From Candidatus Saccharimonadota bacterium (lineage in GTDB: Bacteria; Patescibacteriota; Saccharimonadia; Saccharimonadales; UBA4665): DNA of 58,288 bases. The position numbers and the translations under genes are program-made. Every line of letters begins with the position of its first letter. Within the stretch, counting starts at the first letter, position 1. The notes below the pieces were generated by a model. That model worked only from the letters and a program-made list of their open reading frames with translations, had not been told where the DNA came from and made no database searches. Where the stretch lies: the NCBI GenBank assembly GCA_027459325.1, contig DAIDIO010000006.1, positions 1 to 58,288 of the forward strand, given 5' to 3'. This document shows positions 13,397 through 30,476 of the stretch, piece after piece.

Positions 13397-13990
13397 ATGA
13401 AGAAATTAAACAAAAATCAAAACGGTTTTGGCGTAATAGAGTTACTGCTGATCTTAATATTTATAGCAATCGTAGCGTTCATTGCGGCCTACATTGCCCA
13501 TAACCACAAGACCAGCCTTTCTATTACCGGTTCTACTAACAGTTCTACCCTAGCTAACAATAAAACCTCGGCGGCGGCTGGTGCTGAGGCGGCTATGATT
13601 GCTAGTGATTTACTGAATGCTGGCAATGCTGGTAATGCCGCGTTAGTTACTTACGTCGATAATCACGTTTCGGATGGTCAATTCGTGAGCAGCTTTAAAA
13701 CGGCAGTCGATAGTCGAACAGCACTTCCAAACGGCGGCGCCTCACCAGTTGCCTGCACCAACGGTATCTTTCCTGACAGCTTTAGCGCAGGACAGACAAC
13801 GGTTGCCGGTGATACTGCAATCTCGACGCCTATATTCATAAAAGGCGGCCAGGACGTTACCAATCAGTACGATCAAAGACCTCAGGTGACTCTCACTTAC
13901 CTGAACGGCAAATGGTCTGTAGTTAATTACACCTGCGTTACTAATCCAACGTCAGTTAATAATAGTTCTTCTACGGCCGGCTTCCCGTAA
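13397..13990 (+). CDS. type IV prepilin-like protein
   Basis: 197 residues with a type III signal sequence: short basic leader MKKLNKNQNG, then FGVIELLLILIFIAIVAFIAAYIA. This fits prepilin peptidase cleavage after Gly10, Phe as +1 and Glu as +5. The hydrophobic helix doubles as the pilus-core segment. The rest is Ala/Ser/Thr/Asn-rich with two cysteines (PVACTNG and NYTCVTN) that may close a D-region disulfide loop. Probably a minor pilin or a surface pseudopilin. Its last 64 nt overlap the 3' end of the convergent ATP-grasp gene. Confidence 0.75.
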   Translation: MKKLNKNQNGFGVIELLLILIFIAIVAFIAAYIAHNHKTSLSITGSTNSSTLANNKTSAAAGAEAAMIASDLLNAGNAGNAALVTYVDNHVSDGQFVSSFKTAVDSRTALPNGGASPVACTNGIFPDSFSAGQTTVAGDTAISTPIFIKGGQDVTNQYDQRPQVTLTYLNGKWSVVNYTCVTNPTSVNNSSSTAGFP

Positions 13991-16928: not shown

Positions 16929-18335
16929 CTAAGTTTCTTGCCAAACCCGAACATAATCGACGTACATGTTCAGAGGTGGGATAATGTTATTCTGATATCC
17001 TTTAAATACTGCTAGATCGAGTACTAAATATTGATAGGCGCTGACAAAATTATTGCCTAAGCTGCTAGCTTGGGCCGCCGTTAACGTGCCCATTTTTTGA
17101 CAATCATAATACCAGGTAATGAGACCAGGCTGGAATTCAACCGCATAGGTATGCCATCCTCCGACATAAGGCGCCGATGAAGCGCAACCTTGAAAATTGG
17201 TTCCGTCGTTAGTCCAGCCGACTCCCCCGCCGTTAGGAGGCCCATGCCAGTGTCCGCATAGGCTGTTCGGGTGTAAACCTTCAACGGTATCAAGCTCACC
17301 GCCAAATGGGTAGCTAAGAGAAGAACCGATTTGCCAAAAGGCTGGCCATCCAGATATTGGATTCGCAGCGTCAGTAGGCATCCAGATACGGGCTTCAGCG
17401 TAAGTTGTATTAGTGTCTACTTGGTAAGAAAATTTGCCGGCTGTTGTAACTATACCGGTTGTAAATGGTTCACTTTTTCCTTTACAAAAGTTGGTCTTTT
17501 GTATTAGTTGCAGCCTAAGAGCATTTTCTTTATGATAGTTTCCCACCGTAACCTGATTAGGGTCATAGCAATCGGCTTCATTATTATTAACAGGACCGTT
17601 TGGATCGGACGATGAAGACCAAACTGAATTCCACTTAGAAGTATCTAAAGTTGTCCCATTGAATTCATCATCGAAAATTAACTTCCAGTTAGGATATGTC
17701 AGCTTTGAAGAAGGTATTGCACAAGGACACGAAACACTACTGGCGACAATAGCCGGATCTTTATAGCCGGCTGCGATATCCGGGGAACCAAGTCGGTAGG
17801 TCATACTCTCTTGCTGTGGGGTTGCTTCACCTGCAGCATCCCACCTAACCATAAAAGTGAAACTCTCTTCTTTGCAACCGCTGCGGCAACTAGACGGGAA
17901 CGGCGTAGAATATAGGCCGTTATAGACCGTTCCGGCAGCGTTAGCTTCGTTGATACTAACATAGTATGGCGGCCCCTGCTGGGCGCAACCGGAATTGTAT
18001 TCCTGATAACCCCCGAGTTGATCAGCTTCAGCACTAGTGGGTACTGGCTTAATAAAAGCCGCCGATAAGCTGCCGCTACTGGTAATACAGAAAAAATTGC
18101 TGCCGTTTTTTGCCAGACTTAATACTGCCGACGGGTCGTTATCCATAGCCAGCCGTAATTCTTCAACTTGAGAGTCTAGGATACCGAGGGCCTGCGAATG
18201 TTGCTCGGCAACTAGTGAGGCGCTCAGACCGCCATCAGCTGTTTTGTATGACATGGCCAAAGAAAAACTTAAGACAGATAGAGCCACCATAACTTCAATT
18301 ATTGTGTCTCCCGCCTGGCCCCTTACAAATATCAT
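16929..18335 (-). CDS. type IV prepilin N-terminus fused to GH16 glucanase
   Basis: 468 residues in two parts. The N-terminus MIFVRGQAG|DTIIEVMVALSVLSF is a type III prepilin signal: Gly at -1, Glu at +5, then the hydrophobic pilin helix and a pilin-like stalk (to about 200) with two cysteine pairs. From about 215 a GH16 beta-jelly-roll begins (WKLIFDDEFNGTTLDTSKW), with the catalytic motif E347-L-D349-T-V-E352 and the usual C-terminal YVDYVRVWQ strand. GH16 enzymes of this type act on beta-1,3 or beta-1,3-1,4-glucans, so the enzyme would be displayed on, or anchored like, a type IV pilus. Pilin-GH fusions are not an architecture I know as established. A second possibility is anchoring without pilus assembly. 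Confidence 0.85.
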   Translation of the reverse strand: MIFVRGQAGDTIIEVMVALSVLSFSLAMSYKTADGGLSASLVAEQHSQALGILDSQVEELRLAMDNDPSAVLSLAKNGSNFFCITSSGSLSAAFIKPVPTSAEADQLGGYQEYNSGCAQQGPPYYVSINEANAAGTVYNGLYSTPFPSSCRSGCKEESFTFMVRWDAAGEATPQQESMTYRLGSPDIAAGYKDPAIVASSVSCPCAIPSSKLTYPNWKLIFDDEFNGTTLDTSKWNSVWSSSSDPNGPVNNNEADCYDPNQVTVGNYHKENALRLQLIQKTNFCKGKSEPFTTGIVTTAGKFSYQVDTNTTYAEARIWMPTDAANPISGWPAFWQIGSSLSYPFGGELDTVEGLHPNSLCGHWHGPPNGGGVGWTNDGTNFQGCASSAPYVGGWHTYAVEFQPGLITWYYDCQKMGTLTAAQASSLGNNFVSAYQYLVLDLAVFKGYQNNIIPPLNMYVDYVRVWQET

Positions 18336-21080: not shown

Positions 21081-22307
21081 TTAGTTTCCATATATGCTTT
21101 TATACATAGCTGAGCCATTCGGAAAGTCTGATAATATACCACCGCCCCAATCTAAATTAAAATACGCCTGATAAACTGGATTTGTATCGTTAATTAGCTG
21201 AGCCATTTGCTGGATAAAGTATGGATCATCGCCGCCGCCAGCGTATGAATCACCGCTATTATATAATCCCCATTCTGGAAAACTTAAGGGCTTCCCGTGG
21301 GCGTGAGCAAACTGTACTAAATCATTGACGCCCATATACCGTGTAGTTATGTAGTTCCATCTTTCCTGAGGTGTCACTCCAGGCTGCATCCATTCGACAT
21401 CATATATATCCATACTGATTAAGTCGACTACATCATCGCCTGGATAAAACGAGCTAAATGAGCTCAGAGCGTGGCCTGACTGTAAGCCGTTACATACAGA
21501 CCAGTCAAAAATGAATGAACTACCCGGCACAGCTCTCATTAGCCCAACAATATGCCTGAATAGCTGTACGTAGCCAGAGGGGTTATCTGTAGCCTGCCAC
21601 GGGCCTATTGTGTCACAATTGCCCTCATAACCTAGTCTGATTATTGTATTTGCTAGGCCATTAGCCACTAACTCATTAGCTAGTGCTGTGAAATATGTAT
21701 CAAATTGCCCGCTTACTCCTGCGGCAAATTGCCCTGCGTTGGCACTTTCTAGCATCGGTACACCCAGAACTAATCTTCTTCCCGCTGCTTGCTTAACCCA
21801 ATTACCCCAGGGTTGCATTAACCATTGCTGAGAATCAATAAAATCTTTCTGCCAACCGCCCTTATAGTCTATATAATCTGCGGCATAAGGAACTGGCCTG
21901 CCGAGCCATTGTTCAAATTGTGTATGTGCGGCTATAGCGCCAGGGCCGGTGTATACTCCAAGTGCCGCGGAAGAAGTATTAACTACCTGAGTGGTATTAG
22001 CTTCCATTACACTTGGCGGATTGGTCGGTGTAGGGGTATGAGCCGATACAGGTTTTGATGCCGACGAAACTGGTTGAACATTTTGTGAAGTCACTTTAAC
22101 TGTACCTGCCTTGGTGGGAGTGTGCTGTAAGGTTTTATGATGATGTCCACTCTGCTTAATGTGGGAGCTATTAGGAGCATCGGAGTAGGCGTTAGGGGCG
22201 TACTTATTTACGAGTCCTAGCCCAGCTATAAAAGTTACTATAACAAATATAATAACGCTGAAGATTTCTTTGTTTTTGAAAATACTTACTCGGGACCGTT
22301 TCCCCAT
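21081..22307 (-). CDS. membrane-anchored GH26-like glycoside hydrolase
   Basis: 408 residues: a basic N-terminus, one membrane helix (about 16-33), a Ser/Thr/Pro/His-rich linker (about 42-112) and a catalytic (beta/alpha)8 domain of the GH26 type. Candidate acid/base is E228 in IIRLGYEGN and candidate nucleophile E345 in LSFPEWGLYN; SFIFDWSVCNG and DVVDLISMDIYD are equivalent to the GH26 'W-x-W-x-P' and 'Y-x-x-D-Y-V-D' regions. GH26 members cut beta-mannan or beta-1,3-1,4-glucan. The enzyme would sit outside the cell on a stalk. The preceding gene on the same strand (GT2-GH26 fusion) carries a related domain; 94 nt with CATACT 6 nt from this ATG separate them. Confidence 0.75.
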   Translation of the reverse strand: MGKRSRVSIFKNKEIFSVIIFVIVTFIAGLGLVNKYAPNAYSDAPNSSHIKQSGHHHKTLQHTPTKAGTVKVTSQNVQPVSSASKPVSAHTPTPTNPPSVMEANTTQVVNTSSAALGVYTGPGAIAAHTQFEQWLGRPVPYAADYIDYKGGWQKDFIDSQQWLMQPWGNWVKQAAGRRLVLGVPMLESANAGQFAAGVSGQFDTYFTALANELVANGLANTIIRLGYEGNCDTIGPWQATDNPSGYVQLFRHIVGLMRAVPGSSFIFDWSVCNGLQSGHALSSFSSFYPGDDVVDLISMDIYDVEWMQPGVTPQERWNYITTRYMGVNDLVQFAHAHGKPLSFPEWGLYNSGDSYAGGGDDPYFIQQMAQLINDTNPVYQAYFNLDWGGGILSDFPNGSAMYKSIYGN

Positions 22308-22401: not shown

Positions 22402-25059
22402 TTAGTAAGGCGTTTTTCGGGAAGTGGTAAATAATTCAACAAAATTATTAGTAGATTTTGGTTTTTTAGCAAATTTTGAAATTACTGCTGGTTTTTTAAT
22501 GACTACTTTAGACGGGTTAGGAGCGAACAATGAGCCAAATTCCGAAATATGATTTAGTGTATAGTTAGGTCCAACCAGATTAGCATCTATCATATTTATG
22601 TAAACAAGTGCGCTGAAACCTAAACTGTGATACTGATTAATAGCTTGGTTTATTAATTCACTCTGGAAGACAGGGTCTGCTCGACCAACGCCAAACTCAA
22701 CAATCCATACCGGCTTATTGTAAGACTCTAACCATACTCTATCGGAGGACAAGTCTTTAAAGGTAGGCTGGTAGCTGCCTGACCAGTATTGGTCATACAA
22801 TATAGTGGTTCCAACTACATCTACATAGTCGTTGCCGGGGTAATACGCGGCAGCAACAGAATTACCCGCTGGCGACCATACCCATTTTACGTTGGGAGCA
22901 CCGTTAGACCGCACAAAACTTACAACGTGCTGATAGGCCGCTATGAACGTAGCAGGATCCTGACCAGCCCAGGGATAAACGTCTCCAAGGTCCATTTCAT
23001 GCGCAAACCTAACATATATCGTTTGCTTAGTCGATCCTAAGACATTAGCTAATGCCTTGAGCTTATAGTCATACTGTCCGGCTGCAATATCCTGAAGCAA
23101 CGTCGCACCGTTAACTGTACTACTAGGATCGATGGTAATTAGCGGAGTGTTATGCATTTCGAGGCTGAGATAAATCTGCTGGGCGATGTACCGATCGTCA
23201 TCCCAACTAGCAAAAGCTTCCTGTATATAGGGGTGGCTAGCCTTCAACGGACCAGACGGGTTATAAAAACCTAGACTAGGGCTAGACGTTGGGGTTGTTG
23301 GCACCTGGTGTATTTTTTGCAAAATTTGATTAAGGCTCATTTGGTCAACTGAAAGTAAATGCTTAGAATTTACCGGTGAATGTTTAGAGAAAGCATAGAC
23401 TAAATTTCCCGATATAAGCGGGGAAGTTAATAATGATAGTACTAACAACATAAATACTACACTTGTGGCGCCAATAGGCTTTAGCCACGCAAAGTTCAAT
23501 TTAAATATTGTCAACTTAGCCTGTTTAACAGCTTGATGCAGAGTTATACCTAAGTCCACTATACACACCGACAACATTAGTACAGCGTTTGCTAAAGCAA
23601 AGATAATTTGTGCTTCGGGGGTACTGTCGCCATGTACAATTGACGAATATATTACGGCGCCTATACTAAGTAAGCCCAATCCTAAAAATATCCTATAGGT
23701 TTTTATCAAAGGAACTTCAATATCTTCAGCCCCTTTTGGGGTGATCATATACGGCTTCTTAATTCTGAAGCTAGAACTAACGATTGCCCTTAGTACTATT
23801 GGCCAACGAACGACATGAAGAATCATACCTCGCCATGACAAAAAAACATTTTTAGGTTGCATTAAGGGTCTGGAGGACCACCAAACCATAAACCCAGCAA
23901 TAAATTCCGGCCCAAAATGAGCGCCAAATTGACCAACATGCATCCTAGCAATATTTCTTCCGACGATTAATGCGATTACCGGGCATATGAATAAAATCAA
24001 ATACGTCAGAGACCATAAAGGGTACCATGTTTGAGCGAATAAGAACTGCCAGCGCCTCTTAAATGACATTCTTTTTAATAGCTTTGGGCTATGCGTAGTT
24101 AAAACCTGAAACATAGAGTATGCCCAGGCAAATTGCTGACCTAAATAAATAGAAAGTGTCTCTGGGCCGTCGCCTTCAGCAATTACTTCTGGAATAAATA
24201 CACCTTTATAGCCCTTTGAAGCCAGAGCTAAAGTGTCTAGGTGATCTTCGGCTCTTGTAGGTTGAAAGCCACCAATTTCTTGTATTGCGCTCATTCGATA
24301 AGTTGAGTGCGAACCAATAATAAAAGGCGTATCACTATGGCCGTAAAATCCCATCTGCATAGGACCTTGTAAAACCAGTTCCTGCTCAGAAGAACCTAAC
24401 GAAGTCCAGCTATCATGATTCTTATATACCGAGGGGGCTTGGACCCATGCTACCAATGGATCACGAAAGTGCCCAAGGCTCTTATTTAAATAATTAGGTT
24501 TAGGGTTGTGATCGATATCAAATTGAACAAAGTAATCATATTTATATCTTTTCACCCTATCTATCCAAGCATTAACGTTGCCGGCTTTTGTTTTCGATTT
24601 AAAAGGTGCAACACCTTGGTTATATTTAGCTATTCCCTTACGACTGAAGTACTTGACTTTATACTTTTTCGCTAAAGCTTTTACTTCCTTACTATTGCCT
24701 TCATCTAAAATCCAACTGTCGTGGGGGTAGGTAATGTTAGTTAAGGCGTCAAGTTGCCTTTCTATTATTTCCATAGATTCAGAGTTTGGCACGCACAGTG
24801 TAATGGCGGCTACTTTCAAATTCTTCTGGGCAATCTTTTTTGGTGGAGTTTTAGCTTTAAACACGAAATAAAGAAATAAACTGGGTAGTACTGTAAATTC
24901 ATAGAGCAAAGCTACAGTTAGAGGTATAAATAATGGCAAAAAGTTAACTCGGGCCGCATTAAGCCACCAAAGCCACATCCATAGACTTACGCCTATCCAA
25001 ACCGGTAAAATTAGAAGCGCTCGACGTGTTGAAGGCGTCAAGCGCCCTCCACGCCGCAT
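22402..25059 (-). CDS. processive GT2 glycan synthase fused to GH26-like hydrolase
   Basis: 885 residues in one polypeptide. Residues 15-70: two membrane helices. About 85-315: GT2 domain with ILDEG (about 119), FDIDH (DxD, about 182), AED (about 271) and QQFAW (about 309, QxxxW with Ala in place of the Arg in QxxRW). About 340-560: six or so further helices, the channel part of BcsA-like synthases. About 600-860: a GH26-like domain outside the membrane, with VRFAHEMD (acid/base Glu), VKWVWSPAGN and WIVEFGVG (nucleophile Glu). A single protein would thus make, export and trim a polymer; substrate is unknown, beta-mannan or mixed glucan being suggested by GH26. TATATT lies exactly 6 nt before the ATG at 25059, which is why the GTG at 25062 is not used. 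Confidence 0.85.
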   Translation of the reverse strand: MRRGGRLTPSTRRALLILPVWIGVSLWMWLWWLNAARVNFLPLFIPLTVALLYEFTVLPSLFLYFVFKAKTPPKKIAQKNLKVAAITLCVPNSESMEIIERQLDALTNITYPHDSWILDEGNSKEVKALAKKYKVKYFSRKGIAKYNQGVAPFKSKTKAGNVNAWIDRVKRYKYDYFVQFDIDHNPKPNYLNKSLGHFRDPLVAWVQAPSVYKNHDSWTSLGSSEQELVLQGPMQMGFYGHSDTPFIIGSHSTYRMSAIQEIGGFQPTRAEDHLDTLALASKGYKGVFIPEVIAEGDGPETLSIYLGQQFAWAYSMFQVLTTHSPKLLKRMSFKRRWQFLFAQTWYPLWSLTYLILFICPVIALIVGRNIARMHVGQFGAHFGPEFIAGFMVWWSSRPLMQPKNVFLSWRGMILHVVRWPIVLRAIVSSSFRIKKPYMITPKGAEDIEVPLIKTYRIFLGLGLLSIGAVIYSSIVHGDSTPEAQIIFALANAVLMLSVCIVDLGITLHQAVKQAKLTIFKLNFAWLKPIGATSVVFMLLVLSLLTSPLISGNLVYAFSKHSPVNSKHLLSVDQMSLNQILQKIHQVPTTPTSSPSLGFYNPSGPLKASHPYIQEAFASWDDDRYIAQQIYLSLEMHNTPLITIDPSSTVNGATLLQDIAAGQYDYKLKALANVLGSTKQTIYVRFAHEMDLGDVYPWAGQDPATFIAAYQHVVSFVRSNGAPNVKWVWSPAGNSVAAAYYPGNDYVDVVGTTILYDQYWSGSYQPTFKDLSSDRVWLESYNKPVWIVEFGVGRADPVFQSELINQAINQYHSLGFSALVYINMIDANLVGPNYTLNHISEFGSLFAPNPSKVVIKKPAVISKFAKKPKSTNNFVELFTTSRKTPY

Positions 25060-25065
25060 CACAGC

Positions 25066-25737: not shown

Positions 25738-26925
25738 TTATTGCCAAGCCCTGACGTAATCTACTTTCACTTGCGAGGCAGTACCGTAGGCTGGGGTATT
25801 GCCGCTTGCCAGACCGACAGTTAGGATTAATGTCTCAGGCTGGCCGTTATCAGAAGTCGAATATGATTTAACCAGACTTCCGTCCCAATAAACATTATTA
25901 TAGTTAGAGCCTCTGTATAGTCCGAATGTATAATAATTATTAACCCATGTACCAGAGATATAAAAAGGACCTGCTTGTTGGTCGCCGTTGGAATAATAAT
26001 GGTAGTTAGTAGAGGCGGTGCCTAATCCCTCAAATATATCGGCTTCACCAGCCTGTGGCCAATTCGGCCCGCTAACCCACCAAGCTGGCCAGTTGTATAC
26101 CGTCGTACCACTACCGGGAAAACTAATCCTGGCTTCAGCAAAGCCTCCTACCGGCAAGGCATAGCTACTGGTTTCTATTTCAGCGCCTGAGCTTGAGGAA
26201 GCTAAAGTCAGAATTAAGTTGCCATTAGATTCGGTAACGTTTGAAGACGAAGTCGTTACCCCGTTCTGATTAGTCCAGTTATTTGTGACGTTCCAGATAT
26301 TTGTATTAACTGACGTTCCATTGAATTCGTCATCAAAAACCGGGCTGCCCCAGCCGCTTGCGCCAGTAGTGCTTGAGCCAATACAAGGTGCAACTGTGCC
26401 CTGGTAGCTGCAACCACTATAAGTTGGCGTGACATTGCCTCCAGAGGAACCGCTTGATGAGCCAGTGCTTGAAGAACTTGGAGGCGGACTGGATGTACTA
26501 GCAGGTGTAGAAGCAGCCACGGATGACGATATAGTGCTGCTTTGGGTTGTATGGGGCTGGGTTGTGCTAACTACACTCGTGACGGATTTTGAGGGAGTTG
26601 TCGTAGTACTACTAGTAGCAGATCCACTGCCTGGAGGAGTGGTTACATGGCTGGGATTTGTCCGTATATTAGGCTTAGCGGAGGTAGATGAGCTACTAGA
26701 GGGAGTCGTACCAAAACTGGGTTTGGGTTTGCTAGTAAGATTAATGAGCGCTGCCGCTCCTCCACCTAAAATTATAAATAGAGTAACTGCTAACAAACTT
26801 ATTCCCTTAGCTGATGTAGCTAACCCAATAAGGCGCTGCAAGCCTAGCAAATGCGGAGAAGATGTATCTGCGTCAAAGACAACTACAGTCCCCATATTCT
26901 TATTTTCGCTCGGTTCACTTTGCAT
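25738..26925 (-). CDS. membrane-anchored GH16 glucanase with Ser/Thr linker
   Basis: 395 residues: a cytoplasmic tail of about 40, one membrane helix (about 42-62), a very Ser/Thr/Pro-rich linker (about 65-168) likely to be extended or glycosylated, and a GH16 domain. The catalytic motif is E294-A-D296-I-F-E299 in QAGEADIFEGL; FDDEFNGTSVNTNIWN opens the fold and VKVDYVRAWQ ends it. GH16 of this kind hydrolyses beta-1,3(4)-glucan or transfers glycan. It would act at the cell surface. Domain order is like the secreted GH26 gene (anchor, low-complexity linker, enzyme), which suggests a shared display strategy. The long open frame on the other strand (26429-26968) comes from the repetitive linker. 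Confidence 0.85.
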   Translation of the reverse strand: MQSEPSENKNMGTVVVFDADTSSPHLLGLQRLIGLATSAKGISLLAVTLFIILGGGAAALINLTSKPKPSFGTTPSSSSSTSAKPNIRTNPSHVTTPPGSGSATSSTTTTPSKSVTSVVSTTQPHTTQSSTISSSVAASTPASTSSPPPSSSSTGSSSGSSGGNVTPTYSGCSYQGTVAPCIGSSTTGASGWGSPVFDDEFNGTSVNTNIWNVTNNWTNQNGVTTSSSNVTESNGNLILTLASSSSGAEIETSSYALPVGGFAEARISFPGSGTTVYNWPAWWVSGPNWPQAGEADIFEGLGTASTNYHYYSNGDQQAGPFYISGTWVNNYYTFGLYRGSNYNNVYWDGSLVKSYSTSDNGQPETLILTVGLASGNTPAYGTASQVKVDYVRAWQ

Positions 26926-29492: not shown

Positions 29493-30476
29493 GTGCTAAA
29501 ACCTCACAGTTTATTAAGATTGGATCATAAAGGCCACATGCCTAAAGGCATCGCCTTTATGTTGTTTGGCATGTTTGTGTTTGGACTGATTGGCAGCTTT
29601 AGGGGTTCGACTATCCATGCTTACGCTGTTAGTAATCTGTCCATCAAAGCAGGAGTAGCCGGGAACTGCCTTGATGATCTTAATGACAACAATAAAGCCG
29701 GGGCAATTGTTGATATCTATAACTGTAACGCCAGCGATGCGCAAAACTGGGATGTTAACACCATTAGCATTAAGCATGCCGGATTGTGCCTCAGCGTTGA
29801 GGGCAATAGCCAAAAAGCTGGTGCTAAAGTAGATTTAGATAATTGCAATAATTCACCGGGTCAAGTATGGCTGATCGATAGGAGTAGCTTATATAACCCT
29901 AATGCGCAGCTTTGTTTAACCGATCCTGGCTCCAGGACAGCCGCACAATTAGAGATGGGTGACTGCAATGGCAAAGATAATACTCTTTGGAGTTCGCCGA
30001 TGCTGACCTTAAACTGCTCAAATATCAGGGGTAAAGGTGCTAGAATAGCCTGCTATGCCGAAAGCGACTGGGAAACTTGGCAAGCATCTAATAATCATGA
30101 AAGTTTACTTAATACCTACACCGATGGATCAGCCTATGAAGAGTGGTGCGCCGACTTCGTCAGTTATGTTTACAAGCAAGCCGGTTACCCGTTCACCAGT
30201 GCCTATGACGGCTGGGATGAGAATAATGCTAATAATATCCAGAACTACGGCTTTACCGTACATGATACCAGCTACGTGCCCTCTCCAGGCGACATTGGCT
30301 ACTTCGACTATAGCGGTGGTCATGTTGAGATAGTTATCAGTGGAGGTAGCCAGCCGACGTTCATTTACGGCAACTCAGCAACCATTGATCCAACTACCGG
30401 CAATGGCGAGATGGAAGCCAATACCATTTTGCAGGACGGCAGTTTAGGTAACATTACCAACTATTACTCCTTTTAG
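29493..30476 (+). CDS. secreted ricin-type lectin / CHAP-domain protein
   Basis: 327 residues with a signal or anchor segment (about 16-45). A ricin-B-type beta-trefoil (CBM13) follows, about 48-170, with repeated Q-x-W-like elements (SDAQNWDV, SPGQVWLI, DNTLWSS) and paired cysteines. A CHAP domain covers about 190-327, with catalytic Cys in YEEWCADFVSYVYKQAG and His in GGHVEIVISGG. CHAP enzymes are peptidoglycan amidases or endopeptidases, and the trefoil would bind sugar. It is a plausible cell-wall hydrolase acting on the organism's own wall or on that of a host cell. The GTG at 29493 is the furthest start; ATG 29538 is possible. Confidence 0.85.
   Translation: MLKPHSLLRLDHKGHMPKGIAFMLFGMFVFGLIGSFRGSTIHAYAVSNLSIKAGVAGNCLDDLNDNNKAGAIVDIYNCNASDAQNWDVNTISIKHAGLCLSVEGNSQKAGAKVDLDNCNNSPGQVWLIDRSSLYNPNAQLCLTDPGSRTAAQLEMGDCNGKDNTLWSSPMLTLNCSNIRGKGARIACYAESDWETWQASNNHESLLNTYTDGSAYEEWCADFVSYVYKQAGYPFTSAYDGWDENNANNIQNYGFTVHDTSYVPSPGDIGYFDYSGGHVEIVISGGSQPTFIYGNSATIDPTTGNGEMEANTILQDGSLGNITNYYSF

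Follow-up and report, generated by a model that had tools for sequence, protein, structure and literature searches.

A PilV-type minor pilin joined to a GH16 glucanase domain in a Saccharibacteria genome

The window analysed here is a stretch of 58,288 nucleotides from a Saccharimonadia-type draft genome. On its minus strand, at 16929-18335, it carries a gene in which a type IV pilin module (amino acids 1-199) is joined to a complete GH16 domain (amino acids ~215-468). The open reading frame of 468 amino acids begins with ATG and has no internal stop codon, and its composite nature is confirmed by Pfam, PDB sequence searches and homology to PilV. The pilin homology stops at amino acids 185-199 and the GH16 homology begins at amino acids 207-218; the gap between both corresponds to a linker of about 30 residues (amino acids 186-214, 17694-17780), after which the GH16 domain runs to the C-terminus. 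We hold with good confidence that the product is a modular minor pilin, i.e., a second PilV (GspI-type, belonging to the tip of T4P system 1) bearing a C-terminal GH16 endo-beta-glucanase whose catalytic residues are intact. Scans for promoters and terminators near the gene found matches at chance level only.

The protein starts with a class III leader peptide, MIFVRGQAG (amino acids 1-9, 18309-18335), followed by DTIIEVMVALSVLSFSLAM. Cleavage by PilD is predicted after G9, which would leave Asp at position 1 and Glu at position 5 of the mature pilin; G9, T11, I12, E14 and V15 are invariant across 25 aligned PilV modules. The strict prepilin regular expression matches two of the 66 ATG-started ORFs of at least 100 amino acids in the window. 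Against a cut-off of 21.2 bits, PF07963 (N_methyl) scores 17.6 on the protein alone and 22.1 when the genome is searched. A chance prepilin motif is excluded because amino acids 6-185 share 45% identity (E 4e-36) with the PilV that this genome encodes in its pilus operon, and this homology makes the window copy a paralogue of the operonic PilV located outside the operon. The prepilin cleavage motif put forward by the sequence-only reading is thus borne out, and the N-terminus, by its homology with a minor pilin of the operon, differs from the ordinary signal peptide or membrane anchor that would have told against that reading. Its closest partner in the tree is the PilV from the operon of another genome, G009 (support 98/90), adjoining the genome's own PilV (100/98), a position in keeping with an ancient duplication or with exchange of the gene among relatives. 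Elsewhere in the window, the plus strand encodes a second prepilin-like N-terminus (MKKLNKNQNGFGVIELLLILIFIAIVAF) at 13397-13990, with a weak N_methyl match (E 3.5).

The two halves were modelled separately because alignments that pooled fragments of pilins and of GH16 proteins for a full-length model misaligned both. The AlphaFold2 model of the pilin half (pLDDT 78) predicts a 59-residue helix (residues 8-66) and a beta-sheet (strands within 81-182), i.e., the lollipop fold formed by a long alpha1 helix and a beta-sheet head. In the gene, the alpha1 helix, also covered by PF07963, occupies amino acids 10-66 (18138-18308) and the globular domain, supported by alignment, AlphaFold2 and VIA-align, occupies amino acids 67-185 (17781-18137) and includes the conserved C83 and C117. 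The top four VIA-align matches, 2ret_E (Z 6.9), 3cfi_D, 6qvf_D and 7o5y, are all pilins, and despite modest Z-scores (6.0-6.9) they rank above unrelated structures. They comprise two chains of EpsI/EpsJ pseudopilin complexes, both assigned by chain length to EpsI, a GspI-type tip pseudopilin, a competence pilin of Thermus and S. sanguinis PilA (7o5y), which is described as I-like (PMC9934059). With Foldseek alone, no match of the pilin half was significant, and the sequence profile of the PilV module retrieved from the PDB only the N-terminal helix of pilins (E 0.02). The NCBIfam model gspI (TIGR01707) gives 18.1 bits against a cut-off of 44.35, which is set for T2SS GspI equivalogs and which a distant PilV is not expected to reach. 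Altogether, a PilV/GspI-type minor pilin of the tip complex is supported, an assignment more specific than the one made initially.

The second half (amino acids 215-468, 16932-17693) is related to 17 distinct PDB sequences at E <= 1e-3 (phmmer), all of which bear names of glucanases or of other enzymes of the GH16 type; the best are the laminarinases 3atg (4e-16) and 2vy0 (9e-16). Its model, a beta-jelly roll (pLDDT 81.5, pTM 0.86), superposes on the endo-beta-1,3-glucanase 2vy0 with a Z-score of 27.8, at 2.3 A over 236 residues. The motif ELDTVE (amino acids 347-352, 17280-17297) provides E347, D349 and E352, the invariant catalytic positions (ExDxxE) of 25 aligned GH16 domains, namely that of the window protein and those of 24 relatives. 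PF00722 reaches 15.2 bits, below its cut-off of 22, which is a detection threshold and not a defining property; the GH16 assignment stands because the matches to solved enzymes, the kept motif and the fold outweigh this score. The complete GH16 domain with ELDTVE proposed earlier is therefore upheld. The suggested Pfam search of both halves succeeded in part, since PF07963 passes its cut-off in the genome search but remains below it on the protein alone, as does PF00722.

Likeness to the laminarinases 2vy0, 3atg, 4dfs and 3azx extends to the fold (Z 26-28), the ExDxxE triad and the WPAFW and HxHGP regions. The window enzyme differs from them in sitting on a pilin, whereas these four are secreted or anchored enzymes. 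As judged from the kept residues, the domain would be able to hydrolyse its substrate, probably a beta-1,3-type glucan given its family. This specificity alone gives no pointer to a bacterial host wall, and the sequence is compatible with glucan on a host cell, in the matrix of a biofilm or in the debris of plants, fungi or algae. GH16 domains that have decayed into lectins usually lose their catalytic residues, whereas E347, D349 and E352 are all kept here and align with the laminarinase residues. It is thus quite improbable that the module acts at the pilus tip as a lectin that holds glycan and leaves it uncut, as the ConA-like module carried by S. sanguinis PilC does, even though other PilV modules of the order are lectin- or CBM-like and adhesion is the common theme of known modular pilins (PMC8179133, PMC9934059).

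A profile survey of the class found GH16 matches in 46 of 393 genomes. Of the 63 different GH16 proteins examined at these loci, one, the window fusion, begins with the pilin module; in the other 62, the N-terminus is an ordinary anchor, a signal peptide or an unrelated sequence. The window itself holds an example of this usual display, which contrasts with the pilin fusion: a second GH16 protein (EADIFE; 25738-26925, minus strand) with an ordinary N-terminal membrane anchor and an S/T-rich linker, which is not part of the fusion. This distribution, like the location of the fusion gene outside the pilus operons, would agree with a pilin helix that acts as a membrane anchor only, PilD-processed or not, and tethers to the surface a glucanase serving the cell's own feeding or wall remodelling. 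However, conservation spans the entire PilV module and extends to Glu5, the globular sheet and C83/C117, and a pilin head of 130 residues would be needless for a mere anchor, which makes this explanation unlikely.

At 22402-25062 (minus strand), the window encodes a membrane glycosyltransferase 2 that also bears a GH26-like domain. Its gene adjoins that of a GH26-like protein (21081-22307), and both products could possibly take part in the synthesis and trimming of one polysaccharide. The secreted protein encoded at 29493-30476 (plus strand) looks by eye like a ricin-type lectin repeat combined with a CHAP-like amidase domain.

The genome assembly (822,790 bases, 27 contigs, 91.5% complete) encodes pilus machinery at two loci. 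The T4P-1 operon of contig C25 is complete and comprises PilN, PilO, PilB, PilT, PilC, a pilin, PilD, a minor pilin, PilV, PilW-like and PilX-like proteins, among which PilO, PilV and PilW were named by position and length. Pfam recognizes PilB (PF00437, 1e-123), PilC (PF00482, 1e-64) and PilD (PF06750 and PF01478). The operonic PilV homologue is a protein of 466 amino acids (C25:13137-14537), separate from the fusion and intact. Contig C22 carries a second PilB/PilC-like (T4P-like) locus with its own pilins, as read by eye. The presence of two T4P loci recalls TM7x, which makes two pili (PMC12206443). The sequence-only reading had supposed a pilus or pilus-like base for the enzyme, a proposal that depended on type IV pilus genes being present in the genome, and both loci supply them. 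A like operon with PilV is also found in G009, G072 and G090. The PilV proteins of G009 (L045) and G054 (L046) are identical and the remaining pilus operon looks alike; G054 shows 4% contamination and the two bins may share contigs. The position of the fusion gene outside the pilus operons counts against a tip pilin, as co-expression is not implied.

The lack of any orthologous pilin-GH16 fusion in the 393 genomes of the class, in a sample of 380 genomes of the phylum and in a scan of GTDB contigs also counts against a tip pilin. A singleton in a 27-contig draft raises the question of an assembly chimera between a pilV fragment and an unrelated GH16 gene, all the more as GC content is 0.50 in the pilin half and 0.44 in the GH16 half and the flanking genes lack synteny in relatives by which continuity could be checked (the flanking CRP-like and FKBP genes lie in no conserved block across 93 genomes of the family). 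Nevertheless, the join is in frame and falls exactly between two complete domains, the pilin homology reaches into the beginning of the linker, relatives of each half occur in Saccharimonadia, both GC values are near the range of the other window genes (0.39-0.47) and the operonic PilV is separate and intact. Such an artefact thus appears very unlikely. Searches of the open-licence PMC literature for pilin with glycoside hydrolase, prepilin with laminarinase and Saccharibacteria with GH16 revealed no precedent.

The modular minor pilin proposed here can be set against the other PilV proteins of the order. The profile survey detected the PilV module in 141 of 198 genomes, mostly as one copy each, and many copies stop after the pilin head. 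Among the 42 PilV-like proteins of at least 280 amino acids, 39 were aligned and scanned with Pfam; a polysaccharide lyase, a C-type lectin, a CBM60 and a PA14 domain were each found once and a glycine-rich domain twice. Tandem PilV copies with differing C-termini occur in G370, G329 and G198. These varied C-terminal modules indicate that the PilV carrier is modular in this order and that GH16 is one of its modules. The search for further pilin-glycoside hydrolase fusions suggested at the outset therefore brought no other pilin-GH16 protein but one candidate for a second pilin-enzyme fusion. This gene of G370 (L182:1058-2392, minus strand), which adjoins a second tandem pilV copy, combines a PilV-type pilin with a PF14099 polysaccharide lyase (62.7 bits, above cut-off); a PDB search with its polysaccharide-lyase module gave no match. 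In G130, the PilV-like pilin encoded at L188:667-2577 bears a C-type lectin domain (59.6 bits).

The fusion falls within the "modular pilins" described by Raynaud et al. 2021, as a variant and not as a category of its own. In S. sanguinis, PilB carries a vWA module and PilC a ConA-like lectin (PMC8179133, PMC9934059), the latter at the pilus tip (PMC9934059). Like the window protein, they combine a class III signal peptide, a pilin module and a C-terminal domain foreign to the pilus, presentation at the tip is proposed in both cases, and the PilC module belongs to the ConA-like lectin/glucanase superfamily. However, the grafted modules of S. sanguinis bind, whereas that of the window is a GH16 with intact catalytic residues, and it is held by a GspI/PilV-type pilin, while the I-like subunit of S. 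sanguinis, PilA, has no module. Raynaud et al. 2021 also list modular pilins with predicted peptidase modules, S74 and M26, which resemble the fusion in placing an enzyme-like module on a pilin but are of another enzyme class and are database architectures only (PMC8179133). Cutting by a pilus tip has so far been a prediction only, made for a small number of pilins whose modules cut proteins.

TM7x provides a further comparison, since its PilV1/PilX1/PilX2 locus is of the same T4P-1 kind and C-terminal modules occur there as in the fusion, a jelly-roll-like one on PilX1 and a beta-propeller on PilX2. PilV1 is described as elongated by loops only, and the passages of PMC12206443 considered mention no glycoside hydrolase module. 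Deletion of pilV1 failed and the gene is presumed essential (PMC12206443); unlike PilV1, the window PilV is a duplicate outside the operon.

In type 4 filaments, PilD removes the leader, an I-type pilin helps to nucleate the tip complex and grafted pilin modules are best accommodated at the tip (PMC10191384, PMC8179133, PMC9934059); modular pilins present such modules, which are probably tip-exposed (PMC8179133). By analogy, the prepilin would enter the membrane, PilD would cut it after G9 and its helix would pack into the tip complex with other minor pilins, replacing the resident PilV or beside it. The GH16 domain would then lie at or near the T4P-1 tip and would be moved by PilB, which would extend the fibre, and PilT, which would retract it. 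At the point of pilus contact, it could cut beta-1,3-type glucans of exopolysaccharide, capsule, fungal, algal or plant origin. Delivery of the hydrolase to the surface of another cell, as envisaged by the sequence-only reading for an episymbiont, would be plausible for Saccharibacteria.

This tiny and probably parasitic member of the Saccharibacteria thus probably cuts surface sugars with a retractable pilus tip. More tentatively, and with considerable doubt, Saccharibacteria could use the duplicated PilV as an exchangeable holder for GH16, polysaccharide lyase, C-type lectin, CBM and PA14 modules, the retractable pilus being a glycan-cutting probe that would open the coat of a host or prey before attachment. 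Modular pilins are known mainly as adhesins, and a pilin with an intact glycoside hydrolase would offer a direct test case for catalysis at the pilus tip. For the open question of how ultrasmall episymbionts recognize their hosts and cross the host surface, the fusion gene offers a concrete candidate. Beyond this gene, the PilV survey suggests that serving as a tool holder is a general design of PilV, with differences from one lineage to the next.
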